Of a stretch of DNA of 64,000 bases, positions 20,344 through 27,868 are shown piece after piece; position 1 is the first letter of the stretch; every line of letters starts with the position of its first letter. The stretch covers positions 1 to 64,000 of the forward strand of contig JAUIEJ010000006.1 of the NCBI GenBank assembly GCA_030428885.1. Direction: 5' to 3'. The notes under the pieces are model-generated. The model had not been told where the DNA came from and made no database searches. It worked only from the letters and a program-made list of their open reading frames with translations. The DNA is from Gemmatimonadota bacterium (GTDB lineage: Bacteria > Gemmatimonadota > Gemmatimonadetes > Longimicrobiales > Gaopeijiaceae). Position numbers and translations under genes: made by a program.

Positions 20344-21789
20344 TCAGGCTCGAAGGCGAATCACCCCCGTCCCTGCCGCCACGGGGCGCAGCACGCCGCC
20401 GCCGCTCTCCACCCGGAGTTCCAGGAGGCCGTCGAAGGCCTCGGGCACCCGGTCCACCACCTCGCCCCGGGTAACCAGGAGCACCTGGACGAGGCCGTGC
20501 CCCGCCCGCTCCGACAGCAACTCGGCGGCCCGGACCTTGGCGGCCTCCTCCAGGCGGTCGAAGGGATCGCCCACCACCAGGGCGGCGTCGTTCAGTCCGG
20601 CGTCCTCCCAGAGGAGCTCCACCGCCGCCAGGCGCGTGGCGAGCTGGGCGGCGGCGGCGTCTTCGTCGGGGGGCATGGGGAGGTCGACTTCGGGACCCAC
20701 CAACTCGGCCCGACCCACCCCGGTCCACCGGATGCCCAGGAGCCGCCCTTCGGTGAGGCGGAGCAGGTGGGCGGCGGAGCGGTCCAGGAGGCGGCGGCGG
20801 GCCTGGTCGGCGATCTGACGCCCGGCTTCGGCCAGGGCGTCGTCCACGGCTCGGGCCACGGCGTCGGGAACCGTGGGATTGCGGTCGTCGGCGCCGGCCC
20901 CGAGGCGCGCCGCCAGGCGGGCCTGGAGTTCCTCGAGTTCGTCGCTCCGGGCGCGGGCCGCCTGGGCCTGGTCTTCGAGCTCCCGCGCCGCCGCGTGGAG
21001 TTGGAGAGCCCGACTCTCCAGCTCCTGAAGGGATTCGGGTTTGCCCTCGAGCTGCTCCCGGCGGCGGCGCCACCAGCTCCCGTCCTGGACCACGCTCTCC
21101 CACTCGTCTCGAAGCGTTTCCCGCACGGCTTCGAAGTGGTCGGCCAGCGGGCGACCGCACGTGGGGCACGGCGTGTCGGCCTCGCCCTCCTCCATCTGGG
21201 CCAGCCGGGCCTTCAGTTCCCGGGCCCGGTCGCGGTAGGCCTGCAGTCGGGTCTCGGCGTCCTGCCGCTCCCGCAACCAGTCCATGGTGGCCTGCTCCAG
21301 ATCGCCGGCCACCTCCACGTCGTCCCCCCGGCGCCGGCGGAGCTCCTCCTCCAGTGCCGCCGCCTCGGCCGGCGCCCCCTCCAGCCCCCGGATCCGGGCC
21401 AGGAGGGCTTCGGGCGGGCCCCCGGCGGCCGACGGCGCACCCCGGACCCGGTCCAGCCGCTCCCGGGCGGCCTCCACCCGGTCGAGCCCCCCGACCCAGG
21501 CCAGGGCCCGGGTGCCCGCCTCCACCACCGCCTGCAGATCGGTGAGCCCCCGACCCGTGCGGAGCCGGTGGGCCAGATCGTCGGGAATGCGGGCCAGTCC
21601 CGGGTCGGGACTCCGGGGCGAGGTCACCAGGGAGGCGTCGGGGCCCGCGTCTCCCGAGAGGGCGGCGTGGAGTCCCCGGCGCACCCGGCCGTCGGGAGCC
21701 AGGACCGCCACGAAGCCGGCGGGGAGGTAGTCGGCCTCCACGCTGCCCAGCCCCGGCACCGCCGGCGCATGGAGACTCACGACCCTCAC
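20344..21789 (-). CDS. SbcC/Rad50-like coiled-coil protein with degenerate ATPase motifs
   Basis: The 481-residue protein has the SbcC/Rad50 plan: a short head lobe, a coiled-coil arm (about 100-205), a zinc hook CPTCGRPL at 208-215, a return coiled coil (about 215-300), and a second lobe. The ATPase motifs are decayed. The Walker A place reads APDGRVRRGL (31-40) instead of GPNGSGKST. The signature region reads MPPDEDAAAAQLATRLA (372-388) without LSGGE. The Walker B place reads ALVVGDPFDRLEE (403-415) with a glycine before the aspartate, and the switch region reads VTRGE without the histidine. It is also about half the usual length. Its GTG start overlaps the stop of the SbcD-like gene. ATP-driven nuclease control seems lost; a structural or regulatory role is inferred. 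Confidence 0.78.
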   Translation of the reverse strand: MRVVSLHAPAVPGLGSVEADYLPAGFVAVLAPDGRVRRGLHAALSGDAGPDASLVTSPRSPDPGLARIPDDLAHRLRTGRGLTDLQAVVEAGTRALAWVGGLDRVEAARERLDRVRGAPSAAGGPPEALLARIRGLEGAPAEAAALEEELRRRRGDDVEVAGDLEQATMDWLRERQDAETRLQAYRDRARELKARLAQMEEGEADTPCPTCGRPLADHFEAVRETLRDEWESVVQDGSWWRRRREQLEGKPESLQELESRALQLHAAARELEDQAQAARARSDELEELQARLAARLGAGADDRNPTVPDAVARAVDDALAEAGRQIADQARRRLLDRSAAHLLRLTEGRLLGIRWTGVGRAELVGPEVDLPMPPDEDAAAAQLATRLAAVELLWEDAGLNDAALVVGDPFDRLEEAAKVRAAELLSERAGHGLVQVLLVTRGEVVDRVPEAFDGLLELRVESGGGVLRPVAAGTGVIRLRA

Positions 21790-22850
21790 GTCGCCCTTCC
21801 CTCGGCGGGCGGCGTGGGCGTCAGGATCCGTTCCAGGAGGGCGACGGCCCCCTCCGGGGCCTCGGGGGCCAGGGCCTCTCGCACCCGTTGGATCAACTCG
21901 GGACCGGGAATGGGCGCACCCCCCGGGTCGTCGACCTCCACCGAGAGGTGGACCGCACGGCGGGCCACGTCGGCCAGGAGTCCCTGGAGCGCAACGAGGT
22001 CCGACGGCGCCGGTCCCCTCAGGTGCAGACGCACGATCTTGCGATCGATGCCGCCGGGCACCTCCCGCACCACCTCGGCGAAGCGGGCCCGGAGTCCCTC
22101 GGGATCTCCCGCGGGAGCCCGGGTGGGAGCCAGGGCCACCACCGGACGCCCCGCCACGGGGTGGAAGTCCAGCGTGCCCGAGACCAGCTCCACGACCACG
22201 AAGCCCTTGTCTTCACCGGCCTCCCGCCACGGCGTGGAGCCCACCCGTTCCAGGGAACCGGCGTACGCCACCCTCGGGGCCACCACCCGATGGGTGTGCT
22301 GGGAGCCCAGGGCCACGTAGTCCCACCCCGCCGGATCCACCCGGAGGCCCGGACCGTCGCCCCGGGCCACCCGACCCGTGGTCACCAGGACGTTGAACCG
22401 CGCCCGGGGATCGGGCTCCACCAGGGGCTGGGGACCCCGGAGTACGGCACCGTGGGGAATGGCCTGGACGTGGAGCGACCGATCGGCGTAGGCGATGCTC
22501 CGGGGAATGGTGGTGGCGGCCTCCACGTTGGCGAAGGCGTCCAGCGCCGCCAGCGCACCGGCGTCGCCCGAGCGGCGCGGGGTATCCCGAGCTCCGGCCA
22601 CCATGACCACCGGCGTGTCTCTCAGGGCTTCGATGCCCCGGGCCAGGGTCACCAGCGCTCCGGGAGGCGGATCGGGCCGATCGAAGACGTCGCCGGTCAC
22701 CACCACCAGGTCGGGACGGAGGTCGACCAACTCCTCCACCGCCCGCTGGAACGCCGAGGCCAGGTCCCGTTCCCGGACGTTGACGCCCTGTTCCCACCGG
22801 TCGAACGCCCGGTGGCCCAGGTGCAGGTCCGAGAGGTGGGCGACGATCAC
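21786..22850 (-). CDS. SbcD/Mre11-like metallophosphoesterase with altered active-site motifs
   Basis: The 354-residue protein begins VIVAHLSDLHLG (motif I intact, D8 and H10) and keeps motif II VTGDVFDRP (GD at 53-54). Motif III reads GARD at 86-89 instead of GNHD. The motif IV region reads VLVTTGR (154-160) where SbcD proteins have a histidine (LxLHG). Motif V reads ALGSQHTHR (180-188) rather than GHIH. The capping domain follows. Metal-dependent exonuclease activity is therefore doubtful, although some metal ligands remain. The GTG start at 22850 overlaps the preceding stop, and its own stop overlaps the SbcC-like start, so the two are made together. Family identity is clear from length, order and the retained motifs. 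Confidence 0.78.
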   Translation of the reverse strand: MIVAHLSDLHLGHRAFDRWEQGVNVRERDLASAFQRAVEELVDLRPDLVVVTGDVFDRPDPPPGALVTLARGIEALRDTPVVMVAGARDTPRRSGDAGALAALDAFANVEAATTIPRSIAYADRSLHVQAIPHGAVLRGPQPLVEPDPRARFNVLVTTGRVARGDGPGLRVDPAGWDYVALGSQHTHRVVAPRVAYAGSLERVGSTPWREAGEDKGFVVVELVSGTLDFHPVAGRPVVALAPTRAPAGDPEGLRARFAEVVREVPGGIDRKIVRLHLRGPAPSDLVALQGLLADVARRAVHLSVEVDDPGGAPIPGPELIQRVREALAPEAPEGAVALLERILTPTPPAEGRAT

Positions 22851-23518
22851 ACCCGATCCGGATCCGGAGCGAGGAACTCCACGGGAACGATGCCGTCCGG
22901 GGCCAGGGCGTCGATGGAGAGGATGCCCTCGTCGTCGTCCTCGGCGAAGGCCAGGGCGAACCGTTCCCGATCGATGCGCCCGTCCACCAGCGCCGCCGCC
23001 GACACCACCACCGTGGAGCCCAGGAGGAGCGACGCGGGAAGGAGCCGGGTCAGGAGGAGGGATCCCAGGACCACCGCGCCCAGGGCCCCCCCGGCCGTGG
23101 CCCACGCCCCCACCCGGCTCTCGGGGCTCCTGGCGGCCAATCCCCCGAGCACCCCGCCCAGCGTCAGGAGCGGAAGAGAGGCCAGCGCCGCCACCGCCAC
23201 GCCCCGCTGGACCATGGTGCCGCCCAGGCCCCCCAGGAGACTCCACCCCCCCGCCGCCACCGCCGACACGCCCAGGGCCGCCACCGACAGCAGCCATCGC
23301 CACCGCAGCGAAAGGGCCGCCTCGGGCGTCCACGCACCTTCGGGCGTGCGGCGCGGACCCGTGGCGAGCCCCACGGCCAGCGACGCGAGTTGGACCCCCA
23401 GAAGCACCGTGAGGGCTCGGAGGAATCCCGCCCGGGCGTAGAGCAGGAGCGACAGCGCCAACTCGGCGGCTCCCACCGCCACCGCCCCCACCAGGAGCGG
23501 AGGGAGGGACCGCCTCAC
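22847..23518 (-). CDS. Polytopic membrane protein of unknown function
   Basis: The 223-residue protein has about six hydrophobic helices rich in alanine, leucine and glycine (for example LLVGAVAVGAAELALSLLLY, LLTLGGVLGGLAA, ASLLLGSTVVVSAAALV) and an acidic soluble tail (AFAEDDDEGILSIDALAPDG). No family was recognised. A GTG start at 23518 gives a 4-nt overlap with the flavin reductase stop, matching the other junctions of the operon; a GTG at 23527 is the alternative. It sits between a flavin reductase and the SbcD-like gene. Confidence 0.65.
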   Translation of the reverse strand: MRRSLPPLLVGAVAVGAAELALSLLLYARAGFLRALTVLLGVQLASLAVGLATGPRRTPEGAWTPEAALSLRWRWLLSVAALGVSAVAAGGWSLLGGLGGTMVQRGVAVAALASLPLLTLGGVLGGLAARSPESRVGAWATAGGALGAVVLGSLLLTRLLPASLLLGSTVVVSAAALVDGRIDRERFALAFAEDDDEGILSIDALAPDGIVPVEFLAPDPDRV

Positions 23519-24000
23519 GGCAGCCACCCCCCGAATCGCCCTCGGTAGTAGAGCAGGGGCTCGCCGGCGACGGCCTCGCAGGCCTCCACCCGACCCACCA
23601 CCACCACGTGGTCACCGGCGGGGAACTCGGCGTGGAGCCGGCAGTCGAGCCAGGCCAGGGCGTCGGAGAGGATCGGTGAGCCCGTAGAGCCCGCGGCGAC
23701 CGAGACGTCGGCGAAGCGATCGGCGCGGTCCGCCGCGGCAAACCGGAGGGCGAGGTCCTGATGGTGCCGGGCCAGGATGTTCACGGCGAACGCGCCCGAC
23801 TCCCGCATGGCGGGCAGGGTTTCGCCGCCGTCGGACACCCCCACCATGACCAGGAGCGGGCGGAGGGAGAGGGAGGCCACCGAACTGGCCGTGAAGCCCA
23901 CGGGCCCGGCCTCGTCCCGGCTCGTGATCACCGTCACGCCCGAGCCGAAGTGGCCCATGACGTGCCGGAACGCGTCGATGTCCGGAAGGGAGGAGGCCAT
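23515..24000 (-). CDS. Flavin reductase family protein
   Basis: The 161-residue product (MASSLPDIDAFRHVMGHFGS) has the flavin reductase-like FMN-binding split barrel: GVTVITSRDEAGPVGFTASS with the conserved T-x-S flavin contact, LRPLLVMVGVS, FAVNILARHHQDLALRFA, LAWLDCRLHAEFPAGDHVVV and VGRVEACEA. Such enzymes supply reduced FMN or FAD to two-component monooxygenases or act as NAD(P)H:flavin oxidoreductases. No monooxygenase is nearby. It is the first gene of a coupled four-gene operon with a membrane protein and the degenerate SbcD/SbcC-like pair, an unexplained combination. Confidence 0.88.
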   Translation of the reverse strand: MASSLPDIDAFRHVMGHFGSGVTVITSRDEAGPVGFTASSVASLSLRPLLVMVGVSDGGETLPAMRESGAFAVNILARHHQDLALRFAAADRADRFADVSVAAGSTGSPILSDALAWLDCRLHAEFPAGDHVVVVGRVEACEAVAGEPLLYYRGRFGGWLP

Positions 24001-25170: not shown

Positions 25171-26079
25171 GTGGCCCGGGCGAGGCCGCGGGCACTCGGT
25201 CCCGTTCTGGGGACCGCCCTTCTGGCCCTCGGGTCCGCCTGCGGTGACGCGCCCGGGGCCGACCACGTCCCGGCGAGTCTCGAGCCGGCGGGCGTCCAGG
25301 TGGTGGACGCCGAAGGGCGCTCCGTGGCGCTGGAGGGTCCCGCCCGGCGCGTCGTCTCCCTGGTGCCGTCGGTGACGGCCACCATCCTCGCCCTCGACGC
25401 CGGCGATCGCCTGGTGGGGCGCACCGACTTCGACACCGCCGCGGTCCTGGCCCATCTCCCCACGGTGGGCGGCGGTCTGGGCCCGGACCTGGAGGTGCTG
25501 GCCACCCTCGACCCCGACCTGGTGATCCGATTCGCCGGGGATTCGGACCGGGCCACGCCTGACCGTCTCGACGCCCTGGGCATCGCCCACGTGGCCGTGC
25601 GGCCCGAGGGGGTCGAGGAGGTGATCGGGGAGGTGGACCGGGTGGGGACGCTCCTGGGACTTCAGGCCGGTGCCCGGGCCCTGGCCGAGGGTATGCGCGC
25701 CGGGCTGGACTCGATCCGTGCGGCGGTAGCCGGCCGCCCCCCGGTGGCCACCGCGTACCTCATGGGTGGATCCCCGCCGTGGACCGCCGGGGCCGACACC
25801 TACGTGGGGCAGCTCATGGAGCTGGCGGGCGGGCGCAACGTGTTCGACGACCTGGACCGACCGTGGGGAGCGGTGAGCCCGGAGCAGATCGCCACCCGGG
25901 AGATGGACGTGATCCTCCTGGCCGCCGGCGCCCGGATCGACCCCCGGCTCCTGGAGGGCCGGACGGTCCGGCGGCTCCCGGCCGCCCTGGAGCTGCCGGG
26001 CCCGGATCTCGTGCGCTCGGCGTGGGCCGTGGCCCGGGCGCTCCGGCCCGAGCTGGCCCCACCGGGCGGGGGCCCGTGA
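25171..26079 (+). CDS. ABC transporter substrate-binding lipoprotein (BtuF/FepB-like)
   Basis: The 302-residue protein starts at a GTG preceded by GGAGG and has a signal with a lipobox-like LALGSAC. The periplasmic-binding fold of cluster A-II follows: RVVSLVPSVTATILALDAGD, LVGRTDFD, VGGGLGPDLEVLATLDPDLV, and a C-terminal GADTYVGQLMELAGGRNVFD and SPEQIATREMDVILLAAG. These signatures fit cobalamin (BtuF) or ferric-siderophore/heme binders. The permease and ATPase follow, each with 4-nt overlaps. The PSVTATI segment is the usual BtuF-like opening; cobalamin is the most likely ligand but not proved. Confidence 0.85.
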   Translation: MARARPRALGPVLGTALLALGSACGDAPGADHVPASLEPAGVQVVDAEGRSVALEGPARRVVSLVPSVTATILALDAGDRLVGRTDFDTAAVLAHLPTVGGGLGPDLEVLATLDPDLVIRFAGDSDRATPDRLDALGIAHVAVRPEGVEEVIGEVDRVGTLLGLQAGARALAEGMRAGLDSIRAAVAGRPPVATAYLMGGSPPWTAGADTYVGQLMELAGGRNVFDDLDRPWGAVSPEQIATREMDVILLAAGARIDPRLLEGRTVRRLPAALELPGPDLVRSAWAVARALRPELAPPGGGP

Positions 26080-27059
26080 CCCGCCCCCTCCGTCTGGTCC
26101 TGCTGGCGGCGACCCCGGTGGCTGCGGCGGGCGTGGCGATCCTGGTGGGATCGGCGCCGGTGCCGGCGGGAGACCTCCTGGCGGCTCTCCTGGGCGGGGG
26201 CACCGACCTGGCCCGTCGCATCGTCGACCTCCGGGTGCCCCGCGTGCTCCTGGCGTCGCTGGTGGGGGGTGGACTGGCCGTGGCCGGCGCCACCTTCCAG
26301 GCGCTGCTCCGGAACCCTCTGGCGGAGCCGTACATCCTGGGCATCTCGGGGGGGGCGGCCACGGGCGCCGTCCTGGTGCTGGCGGCGGGCCTCACGGCGG
26401 TGGGCTCGTGGACCCTGCCCCTGGCCGCCTTCGTGGGTGCCCTGCTGGCCATCGTCCTGGTCTTCGGCGTCGCCCGGGCCGCCGATCGTCGCCTCGACGT
26501 CCGGGTGCTTCTCCTGGCGGGCGTGGTGGTGGGCGCCTTCTTCTCCGCCGCCATCGCTCTGATCCTCTCCGTGTCCCAGGCGTCCACGGTGCGCAGCGCG
26601 GTGCTGTGGATGATGGGATCGGTGGCCGGGGCCTCGTGGGGCGACGTGGGGGTGGCGGCGGCCTATACGCTTCCCGCCGTGGCGGTGCTCCTGGGCCTGG
26701 CCCGTTCCCTGGACCTCCTCTCGGTGGGCGAGGAGTCCGCCGCGTATCTGGGGGCCGACGTGGAGGGCGTGAAGCGCACCGCCTACGTGGTGGCGTCGCT
26801 GCTCACGGCGGCGGGCGTGGCGGTGGCGGGGGTCATCGGGTTCGTGGGGCTCATCGTTCCCCACGCCCTTCGCCTGGTGGTGGGGTCCCACCACCGGGTG
26901 CTGCTCCCCCTCTCGGCCCTGGTGGGCGCCGCCTTCCTGGTGCTGGCCGATCTGGGGGCCCGGACCCTCCTGGGGGCCACCGAGATTCCCATCGGCGTGG
27001 TCACGGCCTTCGTGGGCGTGCCCGTCTTCCTGGTGCTCCTGCGGCGGAGCATGGCGTGA
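26076..27059 (+). CDS. FecCD/BtuC family ABC transporter permease
   Basis: This 327-residue protein has about nine to ten transmembrane helices and the FecCD signatures: DLRVPRVLLASLVGGGLAVA, GATFQALLRNPLAEPYILG, GISGGAATGAVLV, and VIGFVGLIVPHALRLVVGS then HHRVLLP, which contacts the ATPase. It starts at a GTG overlapping the binding-protein stop. With its neighbours it forms a complete type II importer for cobalamin or an iron chelate. Two copies would make the channel. Confidence 0.92.
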   Translation: MTRPLRLVLLAATPVAAAGVAILVGSAPVPAGDLLAALLGGGTDLARRIVDLRVPRVLLASLVGGGLAVAGATFQALLRNPLAEPYILGISGGAATGAVLVLAAGLTAVGSWTLPLAAFVGALLAIVLVFGVARAADRRLDVRVLLLAGVVVGAFFSAAIALILSVSQASTVRSAVLWMMGSVAGASWGDVGVAAAYTLPAVAVLLGLARSLDLLSVGEESAAYLGADVEGVKRTAYVVASLLTAAGVAVAGVIGFVGLIVPHALRLVVGSHHRVLLPLSALVGAAFLVLADLGARTLLGATEIPIGVVTAFVGVPVFLVLLRRSMA

Positions 27060-27868
27060 CGTTCGAGGCCCGGGACCTGGTGGTACGCTACCCCGGGAGC
27101 CGGGCCCCGGCCCTGGACGGCGTGGAGCTGTCGGTTCCCGACGGACTCCTGTACGCCGTCCTGGGGCCCAACGGCTCGGGAAAGTCCACGCTGATGCGGG
27201 CGCTGCTGGGCGTGGTCCCCCCGGAGCGGGGGTCGGCCGCCGTCGACGGTCGCCCCGTGGCGGACTGGGACCGACGGGAGTTGGCGCGCCACGTGGGCGC
27301 CGTGCCCCAGGCCGAGGCCATGCCCTTCCCCGTGGCCGTGCGCGACCTGGTGGCCATGGGCCGGTTTCCCCACCTGGGCCCGGTGCGCCCCGAGGGTCCG
27401 ACCGACCGGGCCGCCATCGACGACGCTCTGCGACGGTGCGACGTCGCCCACCTCCGGGCCCGGAGCGTCCAGACCCTCTCGGGCGGCGAACTCCAGCGGG
27501 TCCGCATCGCCCGGGCCCTGGCCCAGCAGCCCCGGGCCCTGGTCCTGGACGAACCCACGGCGAGCCTGGACATCCGCCACGAAATGGCCATCCTCTCCCT
27601 GCTCCGGGAGGCGGCCGACGAGGGCACCACCGTGCTCCTCATCACCCATCACCTCGACCTGGCCGCCCGCTTCGCCGACCGCATCCTCCTCATGGATTGC
27701 GGTCGAGCGGTGGCCGAAGGACCTCCCGCCCAGGTCTACGAAGCCGGAATCCTCGAGGAAGTCTATCGCTGGCCAGTGGAGGTCCGGATGGACGATGCAA
27801 CCGGAGCGCCTCGGGTCATTCCCCGGAGCGCCGCCCCCGCCGAGCGTCCTGCCGAGCCTCGTCCCTGA
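27056..27868 (+). CDS. ABC transporter ATP-binding protein (BtuD/FecE-like)
   Basis: The 270-residue ATPase has Walker A GPNGSGKST, Q-loop AVPQAEAMPF, signature LSGGELQRVRIARALAQ, Walker B LVLDEPTASLD and H-loop ITHHLDLAARFAD. It powers the FecCD-type permease upstream; the start GTG overlaps that stop. The C-terminal 17 codons run antiparallel into the 3' end of rsgA, a 53-bp convergent overlap. All catalytic motifs are intact. Confidence 0.93.
   Translation: MTFEARDLVVRYPGSRAPALDGVELSVPDGLLYAVLGPNGSGKSTLMRALLGVVPPERGSAAVDGRPVADWDRRELARHVGAVPQAEAMPFPVAVRDLVAMGRFPHLGPVRPEGPTDRAAIDDALRRCDVAHLRARSVQTLSGGELQRVRIARALAQQPRALVLDEPTASLDIRHEMAILSLLREAADEGTTVLLITHHLDLAARFADRILLMDCGRAVAEGPPAQVYEAGILEEVYRWPVEVRMDDATGAPRVIPRSAAPAERPAEPRP

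Follow-up and report, generated by a model that had tools for sequence, protein, structure and literature searches.

A Mre11-Rad50-like gene pair lacking catalytic motifs in a family of Gemmatimonadota

Mre11-Rad50, or SbcCD, is among the most conserved of DNA-repair machines. Cutting by Mre11 requires both metals and His85, the ATP-driven clamp of Rad50 requires the Walker A, signature and Walker B motifs, and in archaea HerA works together with NurA. The Rad50 hook has been described as a stable, constitutive dimerisation interface (PMC6969161), and the B-subunits of eukaryotic DNA polymerases have a Mre11-type fold that lacks all of the catalytic residues and now serves as a structural subunit (PMC4996933). 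The window analysed here, a whole stretch of 64,000 nucleotides that forms part of a 407-kb contig in a 5.39-Mb genome, carries a related pair of genes, which we call D (SbcD-like) and C (SbcC-like) and which recurs across the family of the window (Gemmatimonadota, Longimicrobiales; f1 in the following). The f1 pair has in common with SbcCD and Mre11-Rad50 the D-C gene order, the Mre11 capping fold, the Rad50 head, the zinc hook and an orthologous location, but differs in lacking the nuclease and ATPase motifs, in its shorter arms and in often forming one fused chain. It is likewise orthologous to the Mre11-Rad50 part of the archaeal-type HerA-Mre11-Rad50 repair module that is found throughout the class, whereas f1 is without HerA and without the catalytic motifs and has AddAB. 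The likeness to the polymerase B-subunits lies in a phosphoesterase fold that is kept as structure after the loss of catalysis, although in these all catalytic residues are lost and there is no Rad50 partner. With SMC hinge and Rad50 hook modules the pair shares apex dimerisation by the hook, which is probably the selected feature in f1, but functional ATPase heads are not expected in the f1 pair. No paper joining Gemmatimonadota with Mre11, or SbcCD with pseudoenzymes, was found in the open-licence literature.

The operon and its flavin reductase-membrane protein unit

D and C are preceded by genes for a flavin reductase (F) and a membrane protein (M), and all four lie on the minus strand (Table 1). 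Each gene overlaps the next by GTGA (F/M at 23518-23515, M/D at 22850-22847, D/C at 21789-21786), the first of these overlaps requiring that M starts at the nearer of its two in-frame GTG codons. Reading frames, strand and overlaps are thus all as claimed in a first-pass annotation, and its redox enzyme and six-helix membrane protein are borne out as well, since F passes the PF01613 gathering score (148.8 against 27 bits, E 1.7e-43) and M has about six hydrophobic segments. A 4-nt overlap between M and D is found in 44 of 60 f1 loci and a D-C overlap (ATGA or GTGA) in 28 of the 34 f1 loci where the two genes are unfused, and this recurrence means that the overlaps are not due to chance. In the remaining 46 of 80 f1 loci, distributed over 23 genera, D and C constitute a single reading frame, and this fusion suggests that the two proteins form a physical complex. 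Genes for a BtuF/BtuC/BtuD-like transporter (window 25300-27868) adjoin the operon, and this neighbourhood is kept in much of f1.

Table 1. Positions of the genes and motifs of the operon, and of canonical operons elsewhere in f1
Feature	Position	Strand	Basis
F: flavin reductase-like protein, 161 aa	23515..24000	-	PF01613
M: membrane protein	22847..23518 (GTG start 23518; longer in-frame GTG at 23527)	-	
D: SbcD/Mre11-like pseudo-nuclease, 354 aa	21786..22850	-	
C: SbcC/Rad50-like pseudo-ATPase, 481 aa, shortened coiled-coil arms	20344..21789	-	
D motif I (D8, H10), metal-1 ligands kept	22821..22829	-	
D motif II, D54 (equivalent of Pf D49), kept	22689..22691	-	
D motif III, GNHD to GARD	22587..22592	-	census
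D motif V, GHxH to GSQH	22296..22304	-	census
C lost Walker A, GPNGAGKS to APDGRVRR	21676..21699	-	placed by eye, near the model's P-loop position
C zinc hook CPTC (C208, C211), kept	21157..21168	-	
C ABC signature remnant, PMPPDED for ISGGEED (SGGEED to PPDEDA)	20659..20679	-	profile alignment
C Walker B / D-loop remnant, ALVVGDPFDRLE for LLILDEVFGSLD	20548..20583	-	profile alignment
Canonical HerA-SbcD-SbcC operons of three f1 genera	L269:2777-8523; L279:2550-8194; L278:590-6845		

It was suggested in the annotation that the four gene products make up a new system in which a redox enzyme and a membrane protein act with a DNA complex, and a search of related genomes for the four-gene order was proposed as a check. 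The order F-M-D-C does indeed recur, both across f1 and in the taxonomic order. The named relatives are uncultured Longimicrobiales and other Gemmatimonadota. F stands upstream of M in f1 and in two further families of the order, f2 and f3, where F-M is likewise followed by D-C; in two f2 genomes HerA is located between M and D, and in most f3 genomes a spacer with a small antisense gene separates M from an intact D-C pair. The product of this antisense gene is conserved, rich in lysine and about 110 aa long (L095:6759-7103 and others), and no Pfam match was found for it. The notion of a new system is however not supported, in view of the orthology of D-C with the class-wide repair module, the sister families that have an intact pair at the same place, and the separability of F and M. 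F-M is a separate neighbour unit beside D-C, because genus g11 has F and M without the degenerate pair (L081:4620-5806) and because the soluble domain of M is swapped or lost between lineages. In relatives M carries an extra C-terminal Rossmann domain that is missing in the genus of the window (22847-23518); the soluble domain is spermidine-synthase-like (SpeE-like) in f3 (L089:6574-7866) and apparently in f1, and a short-chain dehydrogenase (SDR) in f2 (L096:6588-8015).

These observations also bear on a reading close to that of the annotation, namely that F, M, D and C are one machine in which D-C tethers DNA or the chromosome to M. The recurrent M-D overlap and the gene order speak for it, and the translational coupling to M suggests a membrane location for D-C, but coupling is weak evidence for contact, several loci have no M detected beside D-C, and the independence of F-M in g11, the variable soluble domain of M and the detached pairs of f3 are all in poor agreement with a single machine. 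We hold this reading to be rather doubtful, but it is compatible with the explanation that we prefer below.

Motif losses and retained folds

The degeneracy of both genes was correctly noted in the annotation. D scores above the cut-off for PF00149 (Metallophos) and below it for the SbcD and Mre11 models, reaching 45.4 bits with the curated SbcD model TIGR00619 where 77.65 are needed. A motif census was carried out on 81 f1 sequences from 29 genera against 16 sister-group sequences, some 57 further named loci being read as well; positions follow the numbering of Pyrococcus furiosus Mre11, which we take to apply from general knowledge of the motifs. The ligands of metal site 1 are nearly always present in f1 (D8 in 78, H10 in 77, D49 in 78 and H208 in 76 of the 81), while N84 is lost in all 81, the catalytic H85 is replaced by Arg in 80, H206 is lost in 75, and the equivalent of H173 is mixed, being still His in 50. 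The two-metal site and the catalytic His motifs that define a SbcD/Mre11 nuclease are therefore absent, whereas in the sister groups all sites are intact in every sequence except that of genome G053. By genus, metal site 1 persists in 27 of 29 and is lost in g17 and g2, where the protein is still present.

In C a domain search returns weak Rad50 and hook matches alone, in the coil and hook region. A profile alignment of degenerate with intact C (probability 100, E 4.5e-44, residues 128-465) further shows Walker B changed from LILDE to LVVGD and the H-loop from TH to TR, but the position of Walker A was assigned by eye and from the model, since the N-lobe is heavily eroded and was left unaligned by hhalign. 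Neither Walker A nor a true ABC signature was found in any of 80 f1 SbcC-like sequences; an FSGGE in G024 and G157 lies near the C-terminus, beyond the Walker B position, and was rejected as a chance signature. The CxxC zinc hook at the coil apex is on the other hand present in 78 of the 80, the other two being truncated sequences. The distance from Walker A to hook is 375 residues in intact C but about 175 in the C of the window, and that from hook to C-terminus is about 409 residues as compared with a median of 268, so that both arms are shortened, each by some 140-200 residues relative to SbcCD and Mre11-Rad50. The motif losses occur together in every f1 member, which answers a second check proposed in the annotation; canonical SbcCD is ruled out by the losses in D and C, and a sequencing artefact or decay in a single genome by their identity in 81 sequences.

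Predicted structures indicate that the Mre11 and Rad50 folds are retained although the catalytic motifs are lost. In an AlphaFold model of a fused relative of 840 aa (pLDDT 80, pTM 0.74) the D half best matches M. jannaschii Mre11 (Z 26.4, 282 residues, 3.3 A), in agreement with the PF00149 assignment and with the Mre11 phosphoesterase and capping fold, and for the C half the match is to Rad50 heads (Z 17.1). The model of the window's C (pLDDT 87, pTM 0.59) has over residues 1-471 the two lobes of an ABC-type head joined by an antiparallel coiled coil, and its best match is the ABC head of P. furiosus Rad50 (3qkt; Z 18.6, 266 residues, 4.3 A). What is kept, judging from sequences and models together, is the Mre11 fold with its capping domain, the four metal-1 ligands and the following helices, both lobes of the Rad50 head, and the hook.

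A role in defence had also been considered in the annotation, and an SMC-like system of the Lamassu kind could be thought of, given that C matches LmuB models. These matches are however weak (best E 2.7e-6) and limited to the coiled coil and hook, no defence-system model matches F, M or D or is specific for C, and where Lamassu and other SMC-type defence systems pair an ATPase of the LmuB type with an effector, for example LmuA, the operon has no LmuA-type effector and C has lost its ATPase motifs. Since the pair furthermore occupies a conserved position family-wide and not patchy islands, an anti-phage function is very improbable.

Sister families and AddAB

The degeneration is derived and specific to f1, because sister families hold intact pairs at the same place, and beyond f1 the pair shows no damage other than scattered single changes. 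Two findings that the annotation had named as counting against its proposal accordingly fare differently: the gene order is shared with other genomes, and relatives with an intact SbcCD in this place do exist among the sister families, but within f1 every sampled member is degenerate. f1 is a clade in both D trees, on a long branch whose neighbour changes with outgroup and rooting, an instability that probably reflects long-branch attraction.

In the families f4, f5, f6 and f9 the Mre11-Rad50 pair is widespread, and intact where read. A HerA orthologue (60-82% identical) occurs in f2, f4, f5 and f9, adjoining the pair where coordinates are comparable, and was not found in f1. An AddAB-type nuclease (PF12705, a domain that is not specific for AddAB) was detected in 70 of 73 f1 genomes but in only 31 genomes of f4, f5, f6 and f9, whose total of about 175 is approximate; the AddA/AddB pair was confirmed by domains in the genome of the window, where AddB (1075 aa, PF12705) adjoins AddA (1114 aa, UvrD and PF12705). 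The link to AddAB is correlative and covers a small number of independent lineages, and in some f2 and f5 genomes both an AddAB-type nuclease and Mre11-Rad50 are present. The co-occurrence points to a way in which one machine for resection may take the place of another.

Rescue of the pair by a second SbcC was considered and found no candidate in the genome of the window, where no other SbcD was detected and the sole match to the SbcC model is an SMC-sized protein (C10:167616) in its P-loop region only. Such rescue is limited to the f1 genera g25, g11 and g8, because these have a separate canonical HerA-SbcD-SbcC operon, which was probably acquired separately and which in two of the three genera has a neighbour of NurA size.

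Selection and probable function

One account of the losses would be that D-C is a slow relic, decaying after AddAB took over and without remaining function. All catalytic motifs are gone, as this predicts, and the pair is dispensable, because whole genera lack it (g11, g14, g51 and others). The reading frames are however open in almost every one of some 80 genomes across the whole family, the fusion genes are intact in 23 genera, and the His-to-Arg change is fixed. Within the genus D and C both show a dN/dS of about 0.2, fourfold sites being near saturation, and by segment of C the ratio is 0.06-0.14 at the hook and 0.22-0.45 in the N-lobe; by this measure the pair is under purifying selection. 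D and C are conserved to the same degree as F and M. When each genus is represented by a single sequence, the region around the hook is the most conserved (C147-265, 0.61-0.79) and most of the D core comes next (0.50-0.74); the C-lobe is lower (0.38-0.47) and the N-lobe lowest (0.18-0.41). Conservation and selection thus form a pattern that looks unlike plain decay, with hook and metal-1 residues selectively retained, and a functionless relic is quite unlikely.

The retained metal site could alternatively point to an altered enzyme, in which D is a one-metal phosphoesterase whose Arg binds the phosphate of a nucleotide or other small substrate and C is a regulating scaffold. The persistence of metal-1 ligands in most genera, the near-invariant Arg and the frequent His at the H173 equivalent are consistent with this notion, but the second-metal ligands and the catalytic His were lost together, and g17 and g2 keep the protein after losing metal site 1 as well. 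An altered enzyme is accordingly unlikely.

We rather favour the explanation that D-C is a structural pseudo-Mre11-Rad50, kept for its hook and Mre11 interfaces after AddAB took over end resection; it accounts for the findings most simply, and we consider it probable. The suggestion in the annotation that the complex acts without cutting fits the motif losses, the folds and the kept hook, and is here the best reading. The ancestor of f1 would have had a HerA-Mre11-Rad50 end-resection module that was stripped of its nuclease and ATPase motifs and kept for its architecture, selection on catalysis having presumably been removed as AddAB carried out resection, as their co-occurrence suggests. Two C subunits would pair at the zinc hook and two D subunits would form a dimer like that of Mre11, giving a permanently assembled ring or tether with no ATP-driven opening and closing and no cutting; the nuclease and ATPase activities themselves are presumably lost, to judge from the motifs. 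The Arg in place of His85 may substitute for the second metal ion, locking the site. The role of the complex is probably to hold or organise DNA or partner proteins. That this ATP-independent hook-and-dimer ring, often a single fused chain, is linked by M to the membrane and there tethers DNA or partners is a tentative and somewhat unlikely extension.

f1 offers a natural experiment on how far the hook and scaffold roles of Mre11-Rad50 are separable from its cutting and its hydrolysis of ATP, since the motifs of both activities are gone while the hook and one metal site are kept. Should the hook and the Mre11 scaffold be all that matters, f1 would hold a natural separation-of-function form of Mre11-Rad50. 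As to the order of the losses, the exception among the sister groups, G053, has a D that is nuclease-dead by motif (GDRD, GHHP) beside an intact C (L096:4915-6075), and in this one genome nuclease loss may have preceded ATPase loss. Another D-C pair of G053, which is intact, lies in surroundings that resemble a mobile element (L277:3524-7098).
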